DNA of 64,000 nucleotides. Origin: Geothrix limicola (GTDB taxonomy: Bacteria > Acidobacteriota > Holophagae > Holophagales > Holophagaceae). The stretch spans positions 1,240,001 to 1,304,000 of the forward strand of contig NZ_BSDE01000001.1 in assembly GCF_030268085.1 (NCBI RefSeq). The letters are read 5' to 3'. Shown here piece by piece: positions 54,874 through 64,000 of this stretch. Each line of letters starts with the position of its first letter. The first letter of the stretch is position 1. The position numbers and the translations under genes were made by a program. The notes below the pieces were generated by a model. That model saw only the letters and a program-made list of their open reading frames with translations. It made no database searches and was not told the origin of the DNA.

Positions 54874-55386
54874 TCATTCCCAAACCAGGGGCAACCGGGG
54901 CTGGGGCGGGGCCTTGGGCAGCACCCCTTCGAGGCGGAGCAGGTATTCCTTCATGTCCAGCCCACCCGCATAGCCCACGAGGGAGCCGTCCGATCCGATC
55001 ACGCGGTGGCAGGGGATGAGGATGCCGATGGGATTGGCGCCGCTGGCCCGGGCCGCGGCGCGGATGCACTTCTCGTCGCCCAGGCGCCGCGCCAGCTCCA
55101 GGTACGAGATGGCCTGACCGTAGGGGATCTTCAGCAGTTCCTTCCAGACGCGCTTCTGGAAATCCGTGCCATCGGCCTGCATGGGGATGTTGAAGTCCCG
55201 GAGGTTGCCCGAGAAGTAGGCCTCCAGCTGGCGCTTCAGGTAGGGCAGGCTCTTGGGCTCGGGGCCGCTGGCCAGCGGTCCTGGGGCGCCGTGGAAGCGC
55301 ACGAGCTGGACCAGCTTTCCTTCGTCATTGAAGGCCGCGCCCAGGTCCCCCGGGGGCGTGACGATCAGATGGAAGGCACCAGGCAT
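54874..55386 (-). CDS. O6-methylguanine-DNA methyltransferase, copy 2
   Basis: Second alkyltransferase paralogue, about 170 residues. It has the IPCHRVIG active-site motif with Cys126 (counted from ATG 55386), the SYLELARRLG helix and the RAAARASGANP region. GGGTGG lies just before this ATG; ATGs upstream to 55425 are possible. It is not a recent duplicate of copy 1, as the N-terminal domains differ widely. Confidence 0.9.
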   Translation of the reverse strand: MPGAFHLIVTPPGDLGAAFNDEGKLVQLVRFHGAPGPLASGPEPKSLPYLKRQLEAYFSGNLRDFNIPMQADGTDFQKRVWKELLKIPYGQAISYLELARRLGDEKCIRAAARASGANPIGILIPCHRVIGSDGSLVGYAGGLDMKEYLLRLEGVLPKAPPQPRLPLVWE

Positions 55387-55444
55387 GCCACCCAGCATGT
55401 CAGATCCGTGGTTTTTTTGGACCAAGGACTGACATCAAAACCCT

Positions 55445-55909
55445 TTAAGGCTTCCGCCACCCCAAACCCGACTCCAGGTCCCGAAGGGCCTTCGGCAGAG
55501 GCCCCTCCCCGGGCAGGATCACCCGGTGCGCGGGAATCAGCAGCACGATGGGATTCGCCACGCAGGCCATGACGATCACGTCCTCATCCAGCCCCAGCCA
55601 GGCGGCCAGATCGGCGGGGCGGCGGGTCTGGCCATAGGGGATGGTGCGCACCGTGTCCCAGATCCGCAGCTCTGTGGGCTTGCCCTGGGGATCCAGCGGC
55701 ACGGTGAAGGTGCGCAGGGTGCCGGCCAGGTAGGCCTCCACCTGGCGGTCCAGGAAGCGCTTGGCCTCCCGCTGCTCCCGCGGCGGCAGGGGGCTGGTCT
55801 GGCGGGGATCGAAACCCTCCAGGACGAGTTCCAGCAGCCTCCCCCGGCCGTCGAAGGCGGCGCGCATGAGACCCATCGGGGTGTTCAACTCGTAGTGCCA
55901 GAGGAGCAT
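55445..55909 (-). CDS. Alkyltransferase-like protein (ATL) with PAHR motif
   Basis: Third paralogue, 154 residues. The active-site segment reads LIPAHRVI, so the acceptor Cys is Ala127 (GCG, plus-strand 55529-55531). The Tyr of the SYxxLA helix and the arginine-finger stretch are also lost (RRPADLA and VMACVANP). Known ATL proteins bind O6-alkylguanine and flag it for nucleotide excision repair; most have PWHR, while a Thermus protein has Ala at the Cys position. This protein may be such a damage sensor. It differs from known ATLs in keeping the N-terminal domain. Confidence 0.85.
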   Translation of the reverse strand: MLLWHYELNTPMGLMRAAFDGRGRLLELVLEGFDPRQTSPLPPREQREAKRFLDRQVEAYLAGTLRTFTVPLDPQGKPTELRIWDTVRTIPYGQTRRPADLAAWLGLDEDVIVMACVANPIVLLIPAHRVILPGEGPLPKALRDLESGLGWRKP

Positions 55910-56798: not shown

Positions 56799-58109
56799 AT
56801 GACCGATCTTTCCGCCCTCTTCCACGCCCACATCGCCGAACGCCAGCGCACCACGGCCGACGCATTGGTCCGCACCGGCTTCGAGGCCTTGGTGATCTCC
56901 AGCGGCAAGGTCTACACCCACTTCGCCGACGACCAGGACGCCCCCTTCCACCCCACGCCCCACTTCGCCCACTGGTGCCCCATGGCGGGCCCCCACCACA
57001 TCCTGGTGGTGCGCCCCGGGAAGCGCCCCCGCCTCATCCGCTACGCTCCCGAGGATTTCTGGTACGAGCAGTCCCCCCTCGGAAACCCCTTCTGGGCTTC
57101 GGAATTCGAGATCGAGGAAGTGGGCAACGTGGAGGAGGTCTGGAAGCGCCTCGGCGCCGTCAAGAAGGCCGCCTACATCGGCAACGAAACCGATCGCGCC
57201 GAAGCAGCCGGACTGGAGGCGAACCCCGCCCTGCTCACCGCCTACCTGGATTGGAACCGCACCACCAAATCCGCCTACGAGGTCGAATGCATCGAAGCCG
57301 CCACCGTCATCGCCGCGCGGGGCCATGTCGCCGCCCGGGCGGCCTTCATGGCCGGGGCCAGCGAGCTGGAAATCCACCACGCCTACATCCAGGCCGCCGG
57401 CGTCGTGGACCATGAACTGCCCTACGGCAGCATCGTCGCCCTCAACGAGAAGGGCGCCATCCTCCACTACGAGGGCAAGCGCACCCTCCGGAACGGGGCC
57501 GTGCTGCTCATCGACGCGGGCGCCCAGGTTCACGGCTACGCCTCGGACATCACCCGCACCATGGCCGCTCCCCAGTGCGACAGCCGCTTCGCGGCCCTCA
57601 TCAAGGGCATGGAGACCATCGAGCTGAAGCTCTGCGAGACCGTGAAACCCAAGATGCCCTACGGGGATCTCCACAACCAGGGCCACCTGCTCATCGCCGA
57701 TCTGCTGAAGGAGAGCGGCATCCTCAAGGCCGCGCCGCAGGAAGCCGTCGAGAAGGGGCTGACGCGCCCATTCTTCCCCCACGGACTCGGCCATCACCTG
57801 GGCATCCAGGTGCATGACGTGGCGGGCCGCCAGGGCACGCCCGAGGGCACGCCCGCGCCCCCGCCCCCGGAACACCCCGCCCTGCGCACCACCCGCGAGA
57901 TCGACACCGGCCAGGTGTTCACGGTGGAGCCCGGCCTCTACTTCATCCCCATGCTGCTCCGCCCCTTCCGCGACAACGAGCACAAGTCCTTCTTCAATTG
58001 GACACTCATTGACGAACTGACCCCCTGCGGCGGCATCCGCATCGAGGACAACCTGCTCGTGACCGAGACCGGCCACCGCAACCTCACGCGGCCGCATCTG
58101 CCGCAGTAG
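56799..58109 (+). CDS. pepQ: Xaa-Pro dipeptidase (M24 metallopeptidase)
   Basis: Dimetal prolidase of 436 residues. A creatinase-like N-terminal domain (about 1-165) is followed by the pita-bread catalytic domain. The metal ligands can be seen in VLLIDAGAQVHGYASDITRTM (Asp, Asp), FPHGLGHHLGIQVHD (His), FTVEPGLYF (Glu) and GGIRIEDNLLV (Glu). The overall form resembles E. coli PepQ. It ends before the 378-base gap. Confidence 0.9.
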   Translation: MTDLSALFHAHIAERQRTTADALVRTGFEALVISSGKVYTHFADDQDAPFHPTPHFAHWCPMAGPHHILVVRPGKRPRLIRYAPEDFWYEQSPLGNPFWASEFEIEEVGNVEEVWKRLGAVKKAAYIGNETDRAEAAGLEANPALLTAYLDWNRTTKSAYEVECIEAATVIAARGHVAARAAFMAGASELEIHHAYIQAAGVVDHELPYGSIVALNEKGAILHYEGKRTLRNGAVLLIDAGAQVHGYASDITRTMAAPQCDSRFAALIKGMETIELKLCETVKPKMPYGDLHNQGHLLIADLLKESGILKAAPQEAVEKGLTRPFFPHGLGHHLGIQVHDVAGRQGTPEGTPAPPPPEHPALRTTREIDTGQVFTVEPGLYFIPMLLRPFRDNEHKSFFNWTLIDELTPCGGIRIEDNLLVTETGHRNLTRPHLPQ

Positions 58110-58223
58110 ACAGGGATCCTCGAGCGCCTGCCAGCCGTTGGGACACTGCAAAGGGCCCTCCACCGCGAGGTGGGAGTGTGACTATCTATCGGGCCGTGGA
58201 CTTGAGTGGCAAGGGTTGATCGG

Positions 58224-58240
58224 CCCCGACAACATCGGGG
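58224..58240 (+). terminator. Weak hairpin in the gap after pepQ
   Basis: Perfect 6-bp stem (58224-58229 with 58235-58240) with a five-base loop, about 115 bases after the pepQ stop. No T-run follows. Confidence 0.3.
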
Positions 58241-58403
58241 GACTAGGTTATTCATTTGGGTGAAGTCCCTGAATCCAGCTTTTCTCTTGCCGAAATCATG
58301 TTCTGAGTGAACCTGGGCGCGCCCAAGCCCGATTGAGACAGGGAACCAACGTGGGATTGGGGCCACTTCTTTTGCGTTTCCTCAATCCACGCCCTGTTCC
58401 ATC

Positions 58404-58432
58404 TTGTGATTTGGAATGGCTTCGGGTGTGAT
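58404..58432 (+). promoter_or_regulatory. Candidate promoter of the NCPPxC locus
   Basis: TTGTGA (58404-58409) and TGTGAT (58427-58432) are 17 bases apart, each matching 4 of 6 consensus positions. The start would lie about 50 bases before the ATG at 58488. Weak evidence by itself. Confidence 0.3.
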
Positions 58433-58487
58433 TGGGGAATCCCGCATCCACCCGCCGCTCTCGCGGCTTGTTCCTCAGGAGCACTGC

Positions 58488-59246
58488 ATGTCTGAACCGA
58501 CCTTCGACATCCGGCGGGATCACCGCATCGATCGGAACGAGGCCGTGGATCTCGTCCACCGATACCAGGCCGCCATGCCCGCAGGTTCCCATCTCGCAAC
58601 GGCGTTCAACGCCTCAGCCTTCCGAACGTTGCTGAGCCAGCCGGGTTGCGAGGGCATTCGCATCTATCGTGCCCTTCACGAAGACGGCTCTCCGACGCTC
58701 GCCATGGTAGGGGTGGACGTGCAGGGACTGGATATCAAGCACGAGGAAAGCGCCTTCATGCAGGGCGGCCAGAACTGTCCTCCCGTTTGTTTCTGGGATT
58801 CCATTTTCCATCACCCCTCCGCCACCTGCGTGGTGCCGGGCCTGGTTAGCCATACCGTTGCATTTGATCCCAACCGCGTTCATTCCATCTCCAAATCGGA
58901 GATCACTCAGCTCGTGCGGGCCTTCCAAGTCCAGGCCGCGCCCGATGAGCTTCATTCCTCCATGTACCATCGCTCGGCCTTCGAGCATGTCCTGGATCAA
59001 CCCGACTGTGCCGGCATTCGCATCTACCTCGCCCGGCACAACGACGGGCAGGATTGCATGGTGTTTGTGGGCGTGACTGCCGTGGGTGATGATCTGACGG
59101 CCGAGCACGCCAAGTTCGCACAGGCGGGCCAGAACTGCCCCCCGTTCTGCTTCGATGCCTCCCTCGGATTCTCCCAGGCCGTGGTATGCCAAGCCGTAGG
59201 GCATATCCAGTCACCACAGGTCGAAGTCATCCCCGTCCAGCACTAG
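58488..59246 (+). CDS. Two-domain protein with NCPPxC motif, unknown family
   Basis: A 252-residue protein of two tandem copies of the same roughly 95-residue domain. The copies are exactly 120 residues apart: GIRIY at 56-60 and 176-180, GQNCPPVC ending at 101 and GQNCPPFC ending at 221. Each copy has a helical start (NEAVDLVHRYQ or SEITQLVRAFQ), a SAF..LL-QP segment, a beta part (GIRIY..., VGV) and the closing NCPPxC. No signal peptide or membrane helix is present, so it is probably cytoplasmic. I cannot name the family; small proteins with a similar closing CPP motif exist in Bacteroidetes, as far as I recall. AGGAG at 58477-58481 supports the start. The paired Cys may bind metal or act in redox. 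Confidence 0.85.
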   Translation: MSEPTFDIRRDHRIDRNEAVDLVHRYQAAMPAGSHLATAFNASAFRTLLSQPGCEGIRIYRALHEDGSPTLAMVGVDVQGLDIKHEESAFMQGGQNCPPVCFWDSIFHHPSATCVVPGLVSHTVAFDPNRVHSISKSEITQLVRAFQVQAAPDELHSSMYHRSAFEHVLDQPDCAGIRIYLARHNDGQDCMVFVGVTAVGDDLTAEHAKFAQAGQNCPPFCFDASLGFSQAVVCQAVGHIQSPQVEVIPVQH

Positions 59247-59321
59247 CTCGCGCCCACTTTCACCTTCTGGGCCACGCCATATCCAGCGTACCACGCGGCC
59301 CGGTTTTTCTCTGGAGCCTAC

Positions 59322-59642
59322 ATGTCTTCACTTCCCTTCGACCCGACCTTTGATCACACCATCTCGCGTGACGAGGCTACTGGGCTCATCCAGGCGTTCC
59401 GCTCCACAGCCGCGCCAGGAACCCACCTGTCCTCTGCCTTCAACCGCAGTGCCTTCGAAAAACTGCTGGCTCAACCGGGCGCCGCGGGCATCCGCATTCA
59501 CCAGGCGCAGGAGTCGGATGGGTCACCCACGATGGTGATGGTCGCTGTAGACAGCAAAGGTGCAGATATGAACGCCCCCACCAACCTCTGCATGCAGAAC
59601 AGCTCAAACTGCCCTCCCTACTGCCCCCAGCCTTGGGCTTGA
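59322..59642 (+). CDS. One-domain NCPPxC protein
   Basis: A 106-residue paralogue with a single copy of the domain found twice in the preceding gene. The register is identical: SAF at 43-45, GIRIH at 56-60 and NCPPYC at 96-101. The region between GIRIH and NCPP is shorter on conserved Gly-Gln but keeps DGSPT and the VAVDSKGAD stretch. GGAG precedes the ATG. The stop is followed by a TTG start seven bases on, with GAGGA overlapping the stop, so this and the next gene are coupled. Confidence 0.82.
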   Translation: MSSLPFDPTFDHTISRDEATGLIQAFRSTAAPGTHLSSAFNRSAFEKLLAQPGAAGIRIHQAQESDGSPTMVMVAVDSKGADMNAPTNLCMQNSSNCPPYCPQPWA

Positions 59643-59649
59643 GGAACCC

Positions 59650-60315
59650 TTGCACCCGTACCGAGGTCTCTACTGGTTCAGCCTGAGCACGAATTTCATC
59701 GCTCCGCTGGTACCTGTAACGGCTCTCATCATCCACTGGCGCTCTGGCCGATTCGCGTCACGCCTTTGGATGTCGCGGCTCACAGTGTTCCTGATCGTCA
59801 CCCTCGTAGAGAGCTGGTCCATGCTCGCCACGGCCATGGGTGGTATCCACAACACATGGCTCGCGAATCTCTGGACCATTCCAGAGTCTCTCGCGTTGCT
59901 TTGGGCCCTGGCAGGAGCCGGAGACCGGCCAATTCCGCCTGCCGTCTCCAGCTTTCTAGGGGCCCTCCTCCTGCTGCCCATGTGCTGGGATGCCGTCTCC
60001 CTGGGCCTTGGAGCCCGCTGGCTCCTCTCAGGCACCTTCGCCAGTCTCGTGCTTCTTGGCATCTGCGTGCGCCAGCTGTTCGTGCTTTTCACTCAGCCAG
60101 TGACCCGCAAGGCTTGGCACGAACCCCTCTATTGGTTTCTGGCCAGCGCCTCGTTATCCCTGGCCATCGAACTGACCTTCTATCCCCTATTCAACTTGTT
60201 CCTGCGAACCCTATCGCGAGACTGGATCCTCGTGCCCTGGACTGCAAAATCGCTGGCCTTCCTTGTGCTGAACGCGGGCTTAGCCCGGACCTACCTATGT
60301 CCGAATCCCAGCTAG
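59650..60315 (+). CDS. Seven-helix membrane protein, kinase partner candidate
   Basis: A 221-residue protein with seven hydrophobic helices (about residues 8-28, 40-62, 68-88, 98-118, 125-147, 155-178 and 192-212) and short loops. There are no recognisable enzyme motifs. It starts with TTG, with GAGGA immediately upstream. Its last 19 bases overlap the start of a histidine kinase that has no sensor domain of its own, so it may be the membrane sensor for that kinase. The family is unknown to me. Confidence 0.75.
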   Translation: MHPYRGLYWFSLSTNFIAPLVPVTALIIHWRSGRFASRLWMSRLTVFLIVTLVESWSMLATAMGGIHNTWLANLWTIPESLALLWALAGAGDRPIPPAVSSFLGALLLLPMCWDAVSLGLGARWLLSGTFASLVLLGICVRQLFVLFTQPVTRKAWHEPLYWFLASASLSLAIELTFYPLFNLFLRTLSRDWILVPWTAKSLAFLVLNAGLARTYLCPNPS

Positions 60316-61136
60316 TCCTGAGCTACCTCCTCGGCGTTGTCGCCCTGCTTGCCTTCGGCGGCCTGGCTCTCTACGCCCTCGCCCACGCCAAGAACCGCAT
60401 CATCCGAGAACAGCGCCGCTCCCTGGAAGCCGAGCAGCGGCTGCGCCGGGCGGAGGAATCCTTCACGGACAACGCGCACCATGAACTGCGCACGCCCTTG
60501 CAGATCCTCACGGGCCACCTGCAGATGCTGCAGGATTTCGATCCCCGGGAGGACCAGGTCGAGATCCTCAACCGCGCGCAGTGCACGGCGCTGCACTTGA
60601 GCCAGCTCGTGCAGGGCCTCCTCGACCTCTCCAGCCTCACCCACCGCACCCTCGCCCTCAACCTGGCGCTGACGGACCTGGGCCCGCACCTCGCCCGCCT
60701 GGCTCGAACCTTCGAGCCCCCGGCCACGGACAAGGGCCTGACCTTCCGCCCCAGCCTGGACCCCCTGCCCCAGCCCCTCATGTGCGACGCGACGCGCATC
60801 TGCCAGATCCTGACGGTGCTGCTGGACAACGCCATCGGCTTCAGCGGACACGGCACCATCGATTTCCGGATGTCGGCCCGGCCGGAGGGCCGCCACTGGC
60901 ACCTGCGTTTCGAGGTCGAGGACCAGGGCCCGGGCCTGCCGCCGGACTGGGAGCGCCTCCTGCGCCCCTTCGAGCAGGAAGAGCAAGGCTTCCGCCGGCA
61001 GCGCGGCGGTCTGGGCATCGGGCTGCCGGTGGCCGCAGGCCTCACCGATCTGATGGGCGGGCGCCTGGGCCTGACCCCGCTCGCCACCGGCACCTTGGCC
61101 TGGGTGGAACTCGCGCTTGAAGAAGGCGGGCGCTAA
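60297..61136 (+). CDS. Histidine kinase without a sensor domain
   Basis: Membrane-anchored kinase of 279 residues. One N-terminal helix (about 6-29) is followed by a short coiled coil and a HisKA domain with [10 protein letters not shown] (phosphoacceptor His62). The HATPase domain has [10 protein letters not shown] (N box), DQGPGLP (G1) and [13 protein letters not shown] (G2). The gene overlaps the 7-TM gene by 19 bases. No response regulator gene is nearby. The 3' end overlaps the convergent chemoreceptor gene. Confidence 0.88.
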
Positions 61137-62725
61137 AGCTTGAAGGTTCCCGCGAGGGCGCGCAGGCCTTCCGCCACCTGGGCGAGATCCTCGGAGGTCT
61201 TGGCAATCTCCTTCACCGTGGCCGCCAGTTCGTGCGTGGCCGTGGCGTTCTGCGCGAGGCCCTGGCTGGTCTGTTCCATCATGCGCGTCACTTCGCCGCT
61301 GGTACCCGCCTGCCCCTGGGCGAAGGTGCCGATCTGGGAGACCCGGCTGGCCACCTGCTGGATGCGTTCGCGGATGGCCCCCAGGCTCTGCATGGTGTCC
61401 TGCACGCTGGTGACGCCGCCCGCCACCGCTTCCTGGGCGCGCTCGATGAACGCTTCGATCTCCTTGGCCGACGTGCGGCTGCGCTCGGCGAGCTTGCGCA
61501 CCTCCTCGGCCACCACGGCGAAGCCCTTGCCCATGGAGCCGGCCTTGGCCGCCTCGATGGCCGCATTCAGGCTGAGCAGGTTGGTCTGCCGCGCGATCTC
61601 CTGGATCACGCGCACCGCCTGGACAATCTGGGCCGTCGCTCCCTGGATTTCCCCCATGCCTGCCACGGCGGCCTCGCCGGCCTCGGCGCTGCGCACGGTT
61701 TCTTCCACGGCGGCGGCGCCTTCGCGACCGCCCTCCTGGCTGTGCTGGACCACCAGGCCCGATTCCCGGGAGAGTCCCGCCATGGCCTGGGCCACACGTT
61801 CTCCGGCCTGTTTCAGCTCCTCGCTGACCTTGGCGATATCGTCCACGGCGCGGGCCATCTCCTCCGAACTGGCGGCCAGTTCCGTGCTGCCCGAGGCCAC
61901 GCGATCCGCGTACCCAGAGACATCGACGATCCGTCCCCGCAGGCCGGCGTTGTAGACATTGAAGGCCCGCGCCGCCTCGCCGATCTCATCCTGGCTGTCG
62001 ATGCGAATCTCGCGGGTGAGGTCGCTGCGGCGGAGACCGTCCACCAGGTCCGCCAGCGGCCGGGTCATCCGCCGCGCCACGCCCCGCACCACGAAGAAGA
62101 GCAGCGCCGACAAGGCCAGCAAGCCGCCGAGAATGGACCAGGTGTAGAGCCGCACCTGGGCCTGGAGATCATCGATGTAGACGCCGGTGCCGATGTTCCA
62201 GCCCCAGGGTTCGTACAGCTTCACGTAGTTCAGCTTGGGGAACACGCCCTCCACACCGGGCTTGCCGAACCAGAGGCGAAGGTAGCCGCCCTCCGGCTGC
62301 CGGCCCAGGCGGGCCAGTTCGAGGTAGATGTGGGTGCCCTGCTTGTCCGTGTAGTCGTCGACCTTCTTGCCTTCCATCTCCGGGCGGATGGGCACGGTGA
62401 CGATCCTGGGTTCGGGCGTGAACACGTAGAAGTAGTTGCCACCCTCATAGCGGATCGCCTTGATCTGCGCCAGGGCCCTCTGCTGGGCCTCTTCGCGTGT
62501 GATGGCGCCCGAGGCGGCCTGGGCCTCCTGGGCCGCGAGCATGCCCAGGGCCGTTTCCGTCAGGTTCCGGATGGCATCCTTGCGGGCCTTCAGGAAGCCG
62601 TTCTCCACCGCCGGCACGAGCACCAGCCAGGACACCAGGAACACGATGGCCAGCGGGCCCAGGGCCACCATGAGAATTTTCCCCGCGAGAAACCGGGGCG
62701 TGAGTCGTTCCAGCCATGTGGACAT
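61133..62725 (-). CDS. Methyl-accepting chemotaxis protein with Cache sensor
   Basis: Chemoreceptor of 530 residues. Helix 1 (about 16-38), a periplasmic single Cache domain (about 40-200, with [12 protein letters not shown] and [13 protein letters not shown]), helix 2 (about 200-222), a HAMP domain and a cytoplasmic signalling hairpin with the tip [20 protein letters not shown]. The Cache domain type binds small organic acids in known members; the ligand here is unknown. ATG 62725 has AGAGG upstream. It is divergent from the peptidase gene, with a 125-base gap that includes an AT-rich stretch. Confidence 0.93.
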
Positions 62726-62850
62726 GGGACCTCTTCTGAATAGCAATCGGTGACTTCTCTTCGGGATAAGCGATCCGCACCTCGATTTTTGGACCGCATC
62801 CTCAAGAACCTCGTCTTGCGATATACATAAGGTCGTCTTTCGGAGCCCGC

Positions 62851-64000
62851 ATGTTCCTTCGCACCAGCCTGGCTTGCCTCGTCCTCGCTTCCGGCCTCTG
62901 GGGCCAGGGGCAGGAGCGCCTCAGCCTCGAAGCCCTCGCTCATCCGACACTCAAGAAGGCCTTCGTCGGCATGCCCACCACGCGGCTCGAATGGCTGCCG
63001 GACGGGGCCCTGCTGCAGGTCAAGCGCGAGAAGGACCAGGTCACCCTGCTGCGCGTGGATCCCGCCACCTGGGAGGCCAAACCGCTGCTGGAGGCCGCCC
63101 GCCTGCAGGCCGCCCTGGTGGCCGCGGGTGCGGCGGAAGCCGACGCCAAGGCCGCGCTCGGTCGCGGTGCCTTCACCTGGAACGAGGGGCGCGGCGCGTT
63201 CCTCGTGGATGTGAAGGATCAACTCTTCCTCGTGGATGTGAAGGCCGCCACAGCCAAGCGCCTGGCCGAGGGCCATCCCGACGAACCTTCCTTCAGCCCC
63301 GATGGCACCCAGGTGGCCTACCTCCGCGGCAACGACCTCTACTGCGTGAACGTGGCCACGGCGAAGGAGACGCGACTGACCACGGGCGGCAGCGAGACGG
63401 TGTTCAACGGGCGGCTGGATTGGGTCTACCAGGAAGAGGTCTACGGCCGGGGCCGCTTCGGCGCTTTCTGGTGGAGTCCCGATTCCAAGCGGCTCGCCTA
63501 TCTCTCCTTCGATGAAACCAAGGTGCCCGTGTTCACCCTGGCCGACGACCGCAGCCAGCCCCAGAAACTGCTGCAGGCCCGTTATCCCAAGGTCGGCGAT
63601 CCCAACCCCATCGCCCGCCTGGGTGTCGTCGACCTTGAGGGCCACACCATCTGGACCCCCGAGGCCCATCCCGGCCAGGAGACCCTCATCACCCGCGTGA
63701 TGTGGGATCCCAAGGGCCGCCTCATCGCCAACCTGACGGACCGGGCCCAGACCTGGCTGGAACTGCGCCGCTTCGAGGGTGCCGGATCCACGGTTCTGCT
63801 CAAGGAGCAGGGCCGCGCCTGGGTGGACGCCGAAAGGCAGGAGCTTCCCATCTTCCTGAAGGACGGCAGCTTCCTCTGGCAGTCCAGCCGCACGGGCTAC
63901 CAGCACATCTACCGCTACGATGCCGAGGGTCATCTGAAGCAGGCCGTCACCAGCGGGACCTGGGACGTGCGCCACGTGCACGGCCTGGATGCGGCGAAGG
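62851..64000 (+). CDS. DPP-IV-type S9 peptidase, N-terminal part, runs off the window
   Basis: Open frame of at least 383 codons to the window edge. A signal peptide (about residues 1-19) precedes a beta-propeller of the dipeptidyl peptidase IV N-terminal domain, with [32 protein letters not shown] (the double-Glu motif that binds the peptide N-terminus) and [18 protein letters not shown]. The catalytic Ser-Asp-His domain lies beyond the window. GGAG at 62842-62845 supports the ATG. AT-rich bases at 62822-62830 may hold its -10 element. Confidence 0.9.

Follow-up and report, generated by a model that had tools for sequence, protein, structure and literature searches.

What does a histidine kinase sense when it has a single transmembrane (TM) helix and no sensor domain? 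This question is raised by a four-gene locus of Geothrix limicola, located at positions 58,488 to 61,136 of a stretch of 64,000 nucleotides (assembly GCF_030268085.1, contig NZ_BSDE01000001.1, positions 1,240,001 to 1,304,000, forward strand), hereafter designated as the window, which encodes two small proteins with an NCPPxC motif, a protein with seven TM helices (7TM) and the kinase. We show that small proteins with a CPxxC-type tail, 7TM proteins and kinases devoid of any extracytoplasmic sensor domain are inherited together as one unit, which in Bacteroidota is usually followed by the gene of a LuxR-type helix-turn-helix (HTH) regulator. We hold it to be rather probable that the locus is a split-receptor two-component cassette in its Holophagae form (Holophagae being used as a shorthand for the group of the window, whose genus mates include Geothrix). 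The unit is real, with a distribution far wider than could be known from the initial annotation, which was made from the letters of the window alone.

The four open reading frames (ORFs) delineated by the initial annotation were all found, on the forward strand. The first of them (58488–59246; P0001), whose ATG start follows an AGGAG motif, comprises 252 codons (the longest ORF beginning at 58416) and encodes a double NCPPxC protein with domains at residues ~1–101 and ~123–225. The second ORF (59322–59642) encodes a protein of 106 amino acids with one such domain, which shares 45–48% identity with each domain of the double protein, and is the counterpart of the lone copy occurring in most other Holophagae cassettes. 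The third gene (59650–60315), with a TTG start, encodes a protein of 221 amino acids, which AlphaFold2 and profile searches characterize as a 7TM receptor-like protein, of the W subtype described below. The fourth gene (60297–61136; P0004) encodes the kinase of 279 amino acids, which comprises one N-terminal TM helix followed by HisKA (residues 54–116, E 3.4e-13) and HATPase_c (residues 164–275, E 5.5e-16) domains only, no sensor domain being matched in the library scan, as the initial annotation had stated. The coupling of the gene starts was also confirmed, in that the GAGGA preceding the TTG start of the 7TM gene overlaps the TGA stop of the preceding gene, and that the 7TM and kinase genes share a 19-base overlap. 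The promoter-like site attributed to the locus was not recovered: a consensus scan of positions 57000–63000 returned no sigma-70-like site against 0.6 expected (other promoter types being still possible), and a scan of the same region returned three terminator-like sites against 3.2 expected.

A search of the window's own phylum with the single NCPPxC protein matched 20 of 396 genomes, and 19 of these matches were genuine, 17 in the same genus and two in the same family. The other match (genome G318, locus L022, E 2e-4) was dropped as a 612-amino-acid frame which is of the DUF1800 type by eye. At the Holophagae loci the genes are ordered NCPPxC, 7TM, kinase; at three loci the 7TM protein was too divergent for tblastn and was recovered by profile or by later alignment. 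Using three separate profiles on 47 genomes of the genus, with a kinase cut-off (E <= 1e-60) of our own choice, we found the 7TM, kinase and NCPPxC genes in the same 21 genomes, adjacent and in order each time, the remaining 26 genomes lacking all three. Thirty of these genomes have a completeness of 90% or more and a contamination of 5% or less; 17 of them carry all three genes and 13 carry none. Random placement of the NCPPxC genes relative to the kinase, which the initial annotation had named as the finding that would count against its proposal, was not what we observed, since the NCPPxC, 7TM and kinase genes stand side by side in 21/21 carrier genomes of the genus. As for the 7TM profile, it matched 16 of 267 genomes of the phylum, all from the same family.

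Two further arrangements were noticed in this family. In genome G158, from another genus, locus L148 (974–3349) carries a 7TM gene and a HisKA-type kinase gene with no NCPPxC match, and the gene ahead of the 7TM gene encodes a protein of 159 amino acids with a signal-peptide-like start and no CPPxC. In genome G308, an intact cassette is accompanied (L024, ~1000–2330) by a second kinase gene following the C-terminal half of a 7TM gene, and by a double NCPPxC gene on the opposite strand; judging from the sequences, these extra pieces are a decayed duplicate.

When genome contigs were scanned with peptide patterns taken from Holophagae, and hence blind to most of the distant forms, we obtained 16 loci of Geothrix, Holophagaceae or Acidobacteria and one locus of Flavobacteriales (L042), where a CPPTC protein, a seven-helix protein, a kinase and a response regulator are encoded in that order. 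A profile search of 395 genomes from the phylum of L042, taken as Bacteroidota, matched 26 genomes, 24 of them genuinely. The two others (L101 and L102, in G744 and G760) were dropped as M28-type peptidases by eye, with no 7TM, kinase or regulator match. The resulting first set of 31 loci (32 fetched stretches minus L101 and L102, plus L042) has a 7TM gene next to the small-protein gene in 31/31 cases, then a kinase gene in 30/31 and a separate regulator gene in 26/31. The five loci with no separate regulator are L073, L074, L076, L081 and L100, the kinase of L076 containing a receiver domain. These 31 loci were also the source of the 7TM, kinase and regulator profiles, so that for this set the profile counts only restate our readings of the loci.

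Two further samples were examined. First, a profile rebuilt from the small proteins of the first set matched 37 of the 395 genomes and yielded 18 new places, of which 13 lie in genomes unmatched before. In these held-out loci, the kinase and the regulator follow in 17/17 testable cases (L106 being cut by a contig edge), and the 7TM protein is recognized by its profile (E <= 1e-5) in 16/17, L121 encoding instead a membrane protein of 232 amino acids scoring 20 bits. As a background, 69 neighbour pairs on the same strand were taken from outside the cassettes, and none was followed by a protein of 170–275 amino acids with at least four TM helices. Second, the 7TM profile matched at least 79 of the 395 Bacteroidota genomes (E <= 1e-5), at up to seven places per genome, this being a lower bound with at most seven candidates scored in each. 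The 20 strongest of the places that are not beside a known small-protein gene have a kinase gene next in 19 cases (all but L140), a regulator gene in 18 (all but L125 and L126), and a small-protein gene upstream in 17, which was recognized by profile in seven cases and by eye in ten. Among the ten small proteins recognized by eye, seven have a CPP- or CPN-type motif near their end (some with a single cysteine), and three are lipoprotein-like with no such motif (L137, L141 and L142). Tabulating the neighbours of the NCPPxC gene, as the initial annotation had suggested, has thus placed the 7TM and kinase genes next to it in the carrier genomes of the genus, and revealed the same order in Bacteroidota. 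Its proposal that the locus is one unit is supported by both the co-inheritance in 21/47 genomes of the genus and the synteny in 30/31 Bacteroidota loci and in the held-out loci.

The small proteins and the 7TM proteins of the two phyla are related. First, the profiles of the small proteins align with each other at an hhalign E of 7.6e-30, and those of the 7TM proteins at 9.8e-22 over 207 columns. Second, a hidden Markov model (HMM) made from the Bacteroidota 7TM proteins only recovers 23/23 Holophagae 7TM proteins at 33.8–90.7 bits, the one of the window scoring 33.8 bits (E 4.9e-11). Among 13 unrelated multi-pass controls the highest score is -1.1 bits; several of these controls are near-copies, and they exclude the duplicate cassette loci L043–L072 and the cassette 7TM protein L121_4984.

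The kinases are more diverse. Ten Bacteroidota kinases, chosen as unusual ones, were scanned for domains: HisKA was found in those of L073, L076 and L081 (below cut-off), and HisKA_3 in the other seven, that of L042 being 0.8 bits below the curated cut-off. A crude hydropathy count gives one hydrophobic segment in 23/30 kinases of the first set and in 16/17 held-out ones. The regulators comprise Response_reg and GerE domains in the 3/3 scanned. As the kinase class varies between HisKA and HisKA_3, and as some kinases carry PAS domains, the constant part of the cassette is, on the sequences seen, the small protein and the 7TM protein, plus a kinase in which no extracytoplasmic domain was seen.

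From this organization we propose that the 7TM protein would be the membrane sensor, or receptor, split off from the kinase. Its state would pass to the kinase through the TM helix of the latter, much as would be expected of a fused 7TM input domain. The small protein would be a dedicated partner of the 7TM protein (a co-sensor, a regulatory subunit or a ligand), with a flexible C-terminal tail contacting it. The kinase would then phosphorylate the neighbouring regulator, which would be the output of the circuit, and which in the genome of the window would be encoded elsewhere.

As regards the putative receptor, the AlphaFold2 model of the 7TM protein (14 sequences) has seven TM helices, with a mean predicted local distance difference test (pLDDT) of 88.5 and a predicted TM-score (pTM) of 0.85, and the positive-inside rule gives an N-out/C-in topology in both phyla. 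The predicted fold resembles those of rhodopsins and G-protein-coupled receptors (GPCRs), homology being unproven: the top rows of Foldseek are microbial rhodopsins (TM-score 0.50–0.62, E >= 0.036) and those of VIA are GPCRs (best Z 12.1, knowing that helical bundles can reach about 13 by arrangement alone), a likeness that rests on the matches listed, all of them GPCRs and rhodopsins. A retinal photoreceptor was considered and rejected, because no column in the middle of helix 7 has a conserved lysine in the 14 or the 38 aligned sequences, the commonest lysine columns being at the helix end, which makes retinal unlikely. Sequence comparisons gave little. None of Pfam, NCBIfam, PHROGs and PADLOC matched the 7TM protein of the window at better than E 0.1. 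A comparison of 38 7TM proteins with Pfam (E <= 0.01) returned only DUF2569, for one member (E 0.008), and no 7TM input family such as 7TMR-DISM, 5TMR-LYT or HisKA_7TM; with Pfam and NCBIfam together, one-member rows only were obtained (E 0.0077–0.0084). Against solved structures the 7TM profile gave weak rows, the best being a CMP-sialic acid transporter (E 0.0034, positions 63–170 of 218). A search of the viral structure library gave nothing at E <= 0.001.

A further-reaching proposal, which we regard as unlikely, is that of a GPCR-like bacterial receptor, in which the 7TM protein with a rhodopsin/GPCR fold would respond to the CPxxC protein acting as a ligand or tethered agonist outside the inner membrane, and would switch the kinase through its TM helix, the subtypes being swapped as cassettes between related genomes. 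An N-terminal signal or anchor was found by a simple hydrophobicity rule in 6/33 and 4/23 small proteins, some of the signal-bearing ones having a lipobox (by rule or by eye). In these lineages, the sequences indicate that the domain of the small protein probably lies outside the inner membrane. Most members have no such signal, including those of the window, since no signal peptide was seen in either of its NCPPxC proteins.

The small protein itself has no convincing counterpart in the libraries searched. For the NCPPxC proteins of the window, nothing better than E 0.1 was obtained from Pfam, NCBIfam, PHROGs and PADLOC; when 34 small proteins were compared with Pfam and NCBIfam, every row returned had a single member (the best being TIGR01212, E 3e-4, and Recombinase, E 0.0055); and the NCPPxC profile gave only weak rows against solved structures (best E 0.12, and 1.4 in another search). 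The structure model (pLDDT 64.8) comprises two helices and a beta hairpin, its CPPxC tail falling below pLDDT 50, and a fold search made with it returned nothing at E <= 0.001.

The cysteines could mean that the small protein serves as a sensor of redox state or metal, whose CPxxC pair senses oxidation or binds a metal and signals through the 7TM protein to the kinase, a possibility that we consider quite unlikely. The CPPxC motif is indeed invariant in 21 Holophagae sequences, a C-x3-C near the C-terminus is the commonest feature of the Bacteroidota small proteins, and the protein of the window has no export signal. However, 9/49 Bacteroidota members (33 plus 16 held-out) have no cysteine pair, four of the nine retaining CPP only (L108–L111), and a tenth has a C-x5-C instead; furthermore, some members are lipoprotein-like or signal-anchored, where the redox setting differs.

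That the small protein is a dedicated partner of the 7TM protein, as we propose, is compatible with the way in which the genes multiply and vary together. First, the small-protein and 7TM genes are doubled as a pair before one kinase gene at L074 and L086, and two to three copies of the 7TM gene precede one kinase gene at L073, L092, L094 and L118. Second, the 7TM proteins of 23 Holophagae loci form two subtypes (100/100 support), with eight W and 15 S members, and the tail of the small protein holds a tryptophan in 8/8 W and 0/15 S loci. Third, by nearest neighbour, the subtype is followed by the small-protein tail in 23/23 loci and by residues 1–45 of the kinase in 23/23, but by the kinase body in only 17/23, the identity of the body being equal within and between subtypes (0.64). 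Fourth, in partial Mantel tests the 7TM protein correlates with the kinase TM region given the kinase body (0.78, reached by 0/2000 permutations) and with the small-protein tail given the core (0.76, 0/2000), as compared with 0.17 (186/2000) for the kinase body given the TM region, and 0.23 (23/2000) for the small-protein core given the tail. This pattern fits contacts among the 7TM protein, the small-protein tail and the kinase helix, supporting them without proving them. The initial annotation had suggested that the 7TM protein is the sensor; this suggestion gains indirect support from the receptor-like predicted fold and from the kinase helix, which unlike the kinase body tracks the 7TM subtype, with the caveat of linkage given below.

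The same data bear on the possibility that the circuit has the small protein as its output or as a feedback product merely co-transcribed with it, as LiaIH is with LiaFSR. In favour of it, the small-protein gene is the first of the cassette in the loci read, and is sometimes duplicated or fused. We nonetheless find it improbable, given that a small-protein gene lies upstream in 17/20 of the loci found through the 7TM protein alone, that it doubles together with the 7TM gene (L074 and L086), and that the tail of its product co-varies with the 7TM protein. Of the two roles, output or modulator, that the initial annotation had left to the NCPPxC proteins, the arrays and the co-variation between tail and 7TM protein would point away from the first and towards a partner of the 7TM protein.

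Very improbable, in our opinion, is an Agr-like pheromone circuit, in which the small protein would be a precursor, the 7TM protein would process or export its C-terminal peptide and the kinase would sense this peptide: although the cassette has a gene order similar to that of agr (precursor, membrane protein, kinase, regulator), and its motif stands near the C-terminus (ending exactly eight residues from it in 18/49 Bacteroidota members), in a tail of low model confidence that co-varies with the 7TM subtype, conservation in Holophagae is higher in the N-terminal domain than in the tail (mean identity 0.67 versus 0.55), fused copies carry an internal motif (P0001, and L080, where that of the first domain is degraded), no residue is invariant over 38 7TM proteins (the C217 invariant in Holophagae falling within the gene overlap), the kinase has no receptor domain, and no exporter gene was noticed by eye among the listed neighbours.

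Returning to the split-receptor cassette, several points weigh against it. First, the co-variation has another possible source: the small-protein tail and the kinase helix are encoded on either side of the 7TM gene, and because of this position, recombination of one linked stretch of DNA could generate the same pattern with no contact between the proteins. In addition, the small-protein core also tracks the subtype (22/23), with a correlation of 0.59 with the 7TM protein, and near-identical loci among the 23 inflate the nearest-neighbour counts. Second, the cassette is not always complete: L100 has the small protein and the 7TM protein with no kinase, no small protein was seen at L132, L134 and L140, and L140 has a 7TM protein and a regulator with no kinase. 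Third, the lack of a sensor, which the initial annotation stated for the kinase of the window, is not universal in the cassettes, as PAS domains, which provide a cytoplasmic input of their own, occur in 6/10 scanned Bacteroidota kinases (L073, L074, L076, L077, L080 and L081); and the crude hydropathy count gives two hydrophobic segments in 7/30 kinases of the first set and in 1/17 held-out ones. Fourth, no NarL-type regulator was found in the 64-kb window with the profile of the Bacteroidota regulators, which could miss other types; in 16 other Holophagae loci, the same profile found one in each of L026 and L028, 3–4 kb upstream and on the other strand. Fifth, export signals being present in some lineages and absent from most, including that of the window, the small protein may lie on either side of the membrane. 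Sixth, the rhodopsin/GPCR fold match is not significant (no Foldseek E <= 0.001; VIA Z below about 13). Finally, the support is computational, coming from sequences and single-protein models.

Several known systems share features with the cassette. LiaFSR and VraTSR resemble the Bacteroidota form in combining an accessory membrane protein with a HisKA_3 kinase and a NarL-type regulator; they differ by a membrane protein of another size and are not known to include a CPxxC-tail protein, and the cassette also uses HisKA kinases. In sensory rhodopsin–transducer pairs, the signal of a separate seven-helix protein, which has the rhodopsin fold, passes through the TM helices of its partner. The cassette differs from them in that its 7TM protein has no retinal lysine and the partner is the kinase itself, and no homology is claimed. 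As for the Sae system of Staphylococcus aureus, its kinase SaeS has two TM helices. The four genes of the SaePQRS operon encode a lipoprotein and a small membrane protein in addition to the kinase and the regulator, and SaeP, SaeQ and SaeS form a ternary complex (PMC5083920); by its layout, this is the nearest described system. It differs by the four predicted TM helices of SaeQ, as compared to seven here, and by its P-Q-R-S gene order, and a CPxxC tail is not mentioned in the passages considered (PMC5083920). In BtsS, of the LytS family, a fused N-out 7TM input domain controls a histidine kinase (PMC10653868). This 7TM domain belongs to a LytS-type kinase, whereas the 7TM protein of the cassette is separate and is associated with a HisKA or HisKA_3 kinase and a small partner. 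A known defence system was considered and rejected for lack of a PADLOC match, and a known phage family for lack of a PHROG match better than E 0.1 for the three proteins compared. The statement of the initial annotation that no described system has this make-up agrees with the library searches and with our search of open-licence papers, in which no description of the cassette was found. The known kind is that of two-component systems with accessory membrane proteins; the two protein families and the split 7TM design appear to be undescribed.

As regards the genomic surroundings, the cassette is preceded by a gene that is aminopeptidase-P-like by eye, both in the window and at L004, L005, L006, L009, L018, L020 and L021. 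It therefore stands mostly at one inherited place, L008 and L017 being exceptions. Downstream, the kinase gene of the window converges with the gene of a methyl-accepting-chemotaxis-type protein (by eye; 61133–62746, reverse strand), and the downstream genes vary among the other Holophagae loci. Further upstream, two tandem ORFs on the reverse strand, with a PCHR-type site in the first (54874–55425) and PAHR in the second (55445–55909), both by eye, encode what we take to be alkyltransferase-like proteins (Ogt/ATL-type), of which the PAHR one may be a non-catalytic ATL-type protein. In Bacteroidota, genes resembling by eye those of phage-tail-collar or microcystin-dependent proteins lie just upstream of the cassette at L104, L106, L108, L112 and L113, and are possible targets of the regulator. 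At L089, L093, L103 and L134, an extra gene of the 7TM, kinase or regulator-like kind stands a few kilobases away at most, which suggests clusters of several cassettes. Plasmid searches returned no match.

Together, these findings establish the cassette in two bacterial phyla, with at least 79 of 395 Bacteroidota genomes reached by the 7TM profile alone and 21 of 47 genomes of the genus, and they name two protein families, the small CPxxC-tail protein and the 7TM protein, that have no entry in the libraries searched. The cassette offers a clean setting for studying how a separate seven-helix receptor controls a kinase via a TM helix. If the proposed split-receptor design is true, many kinases that are annotated as sensorless would gain an assigned sensor.

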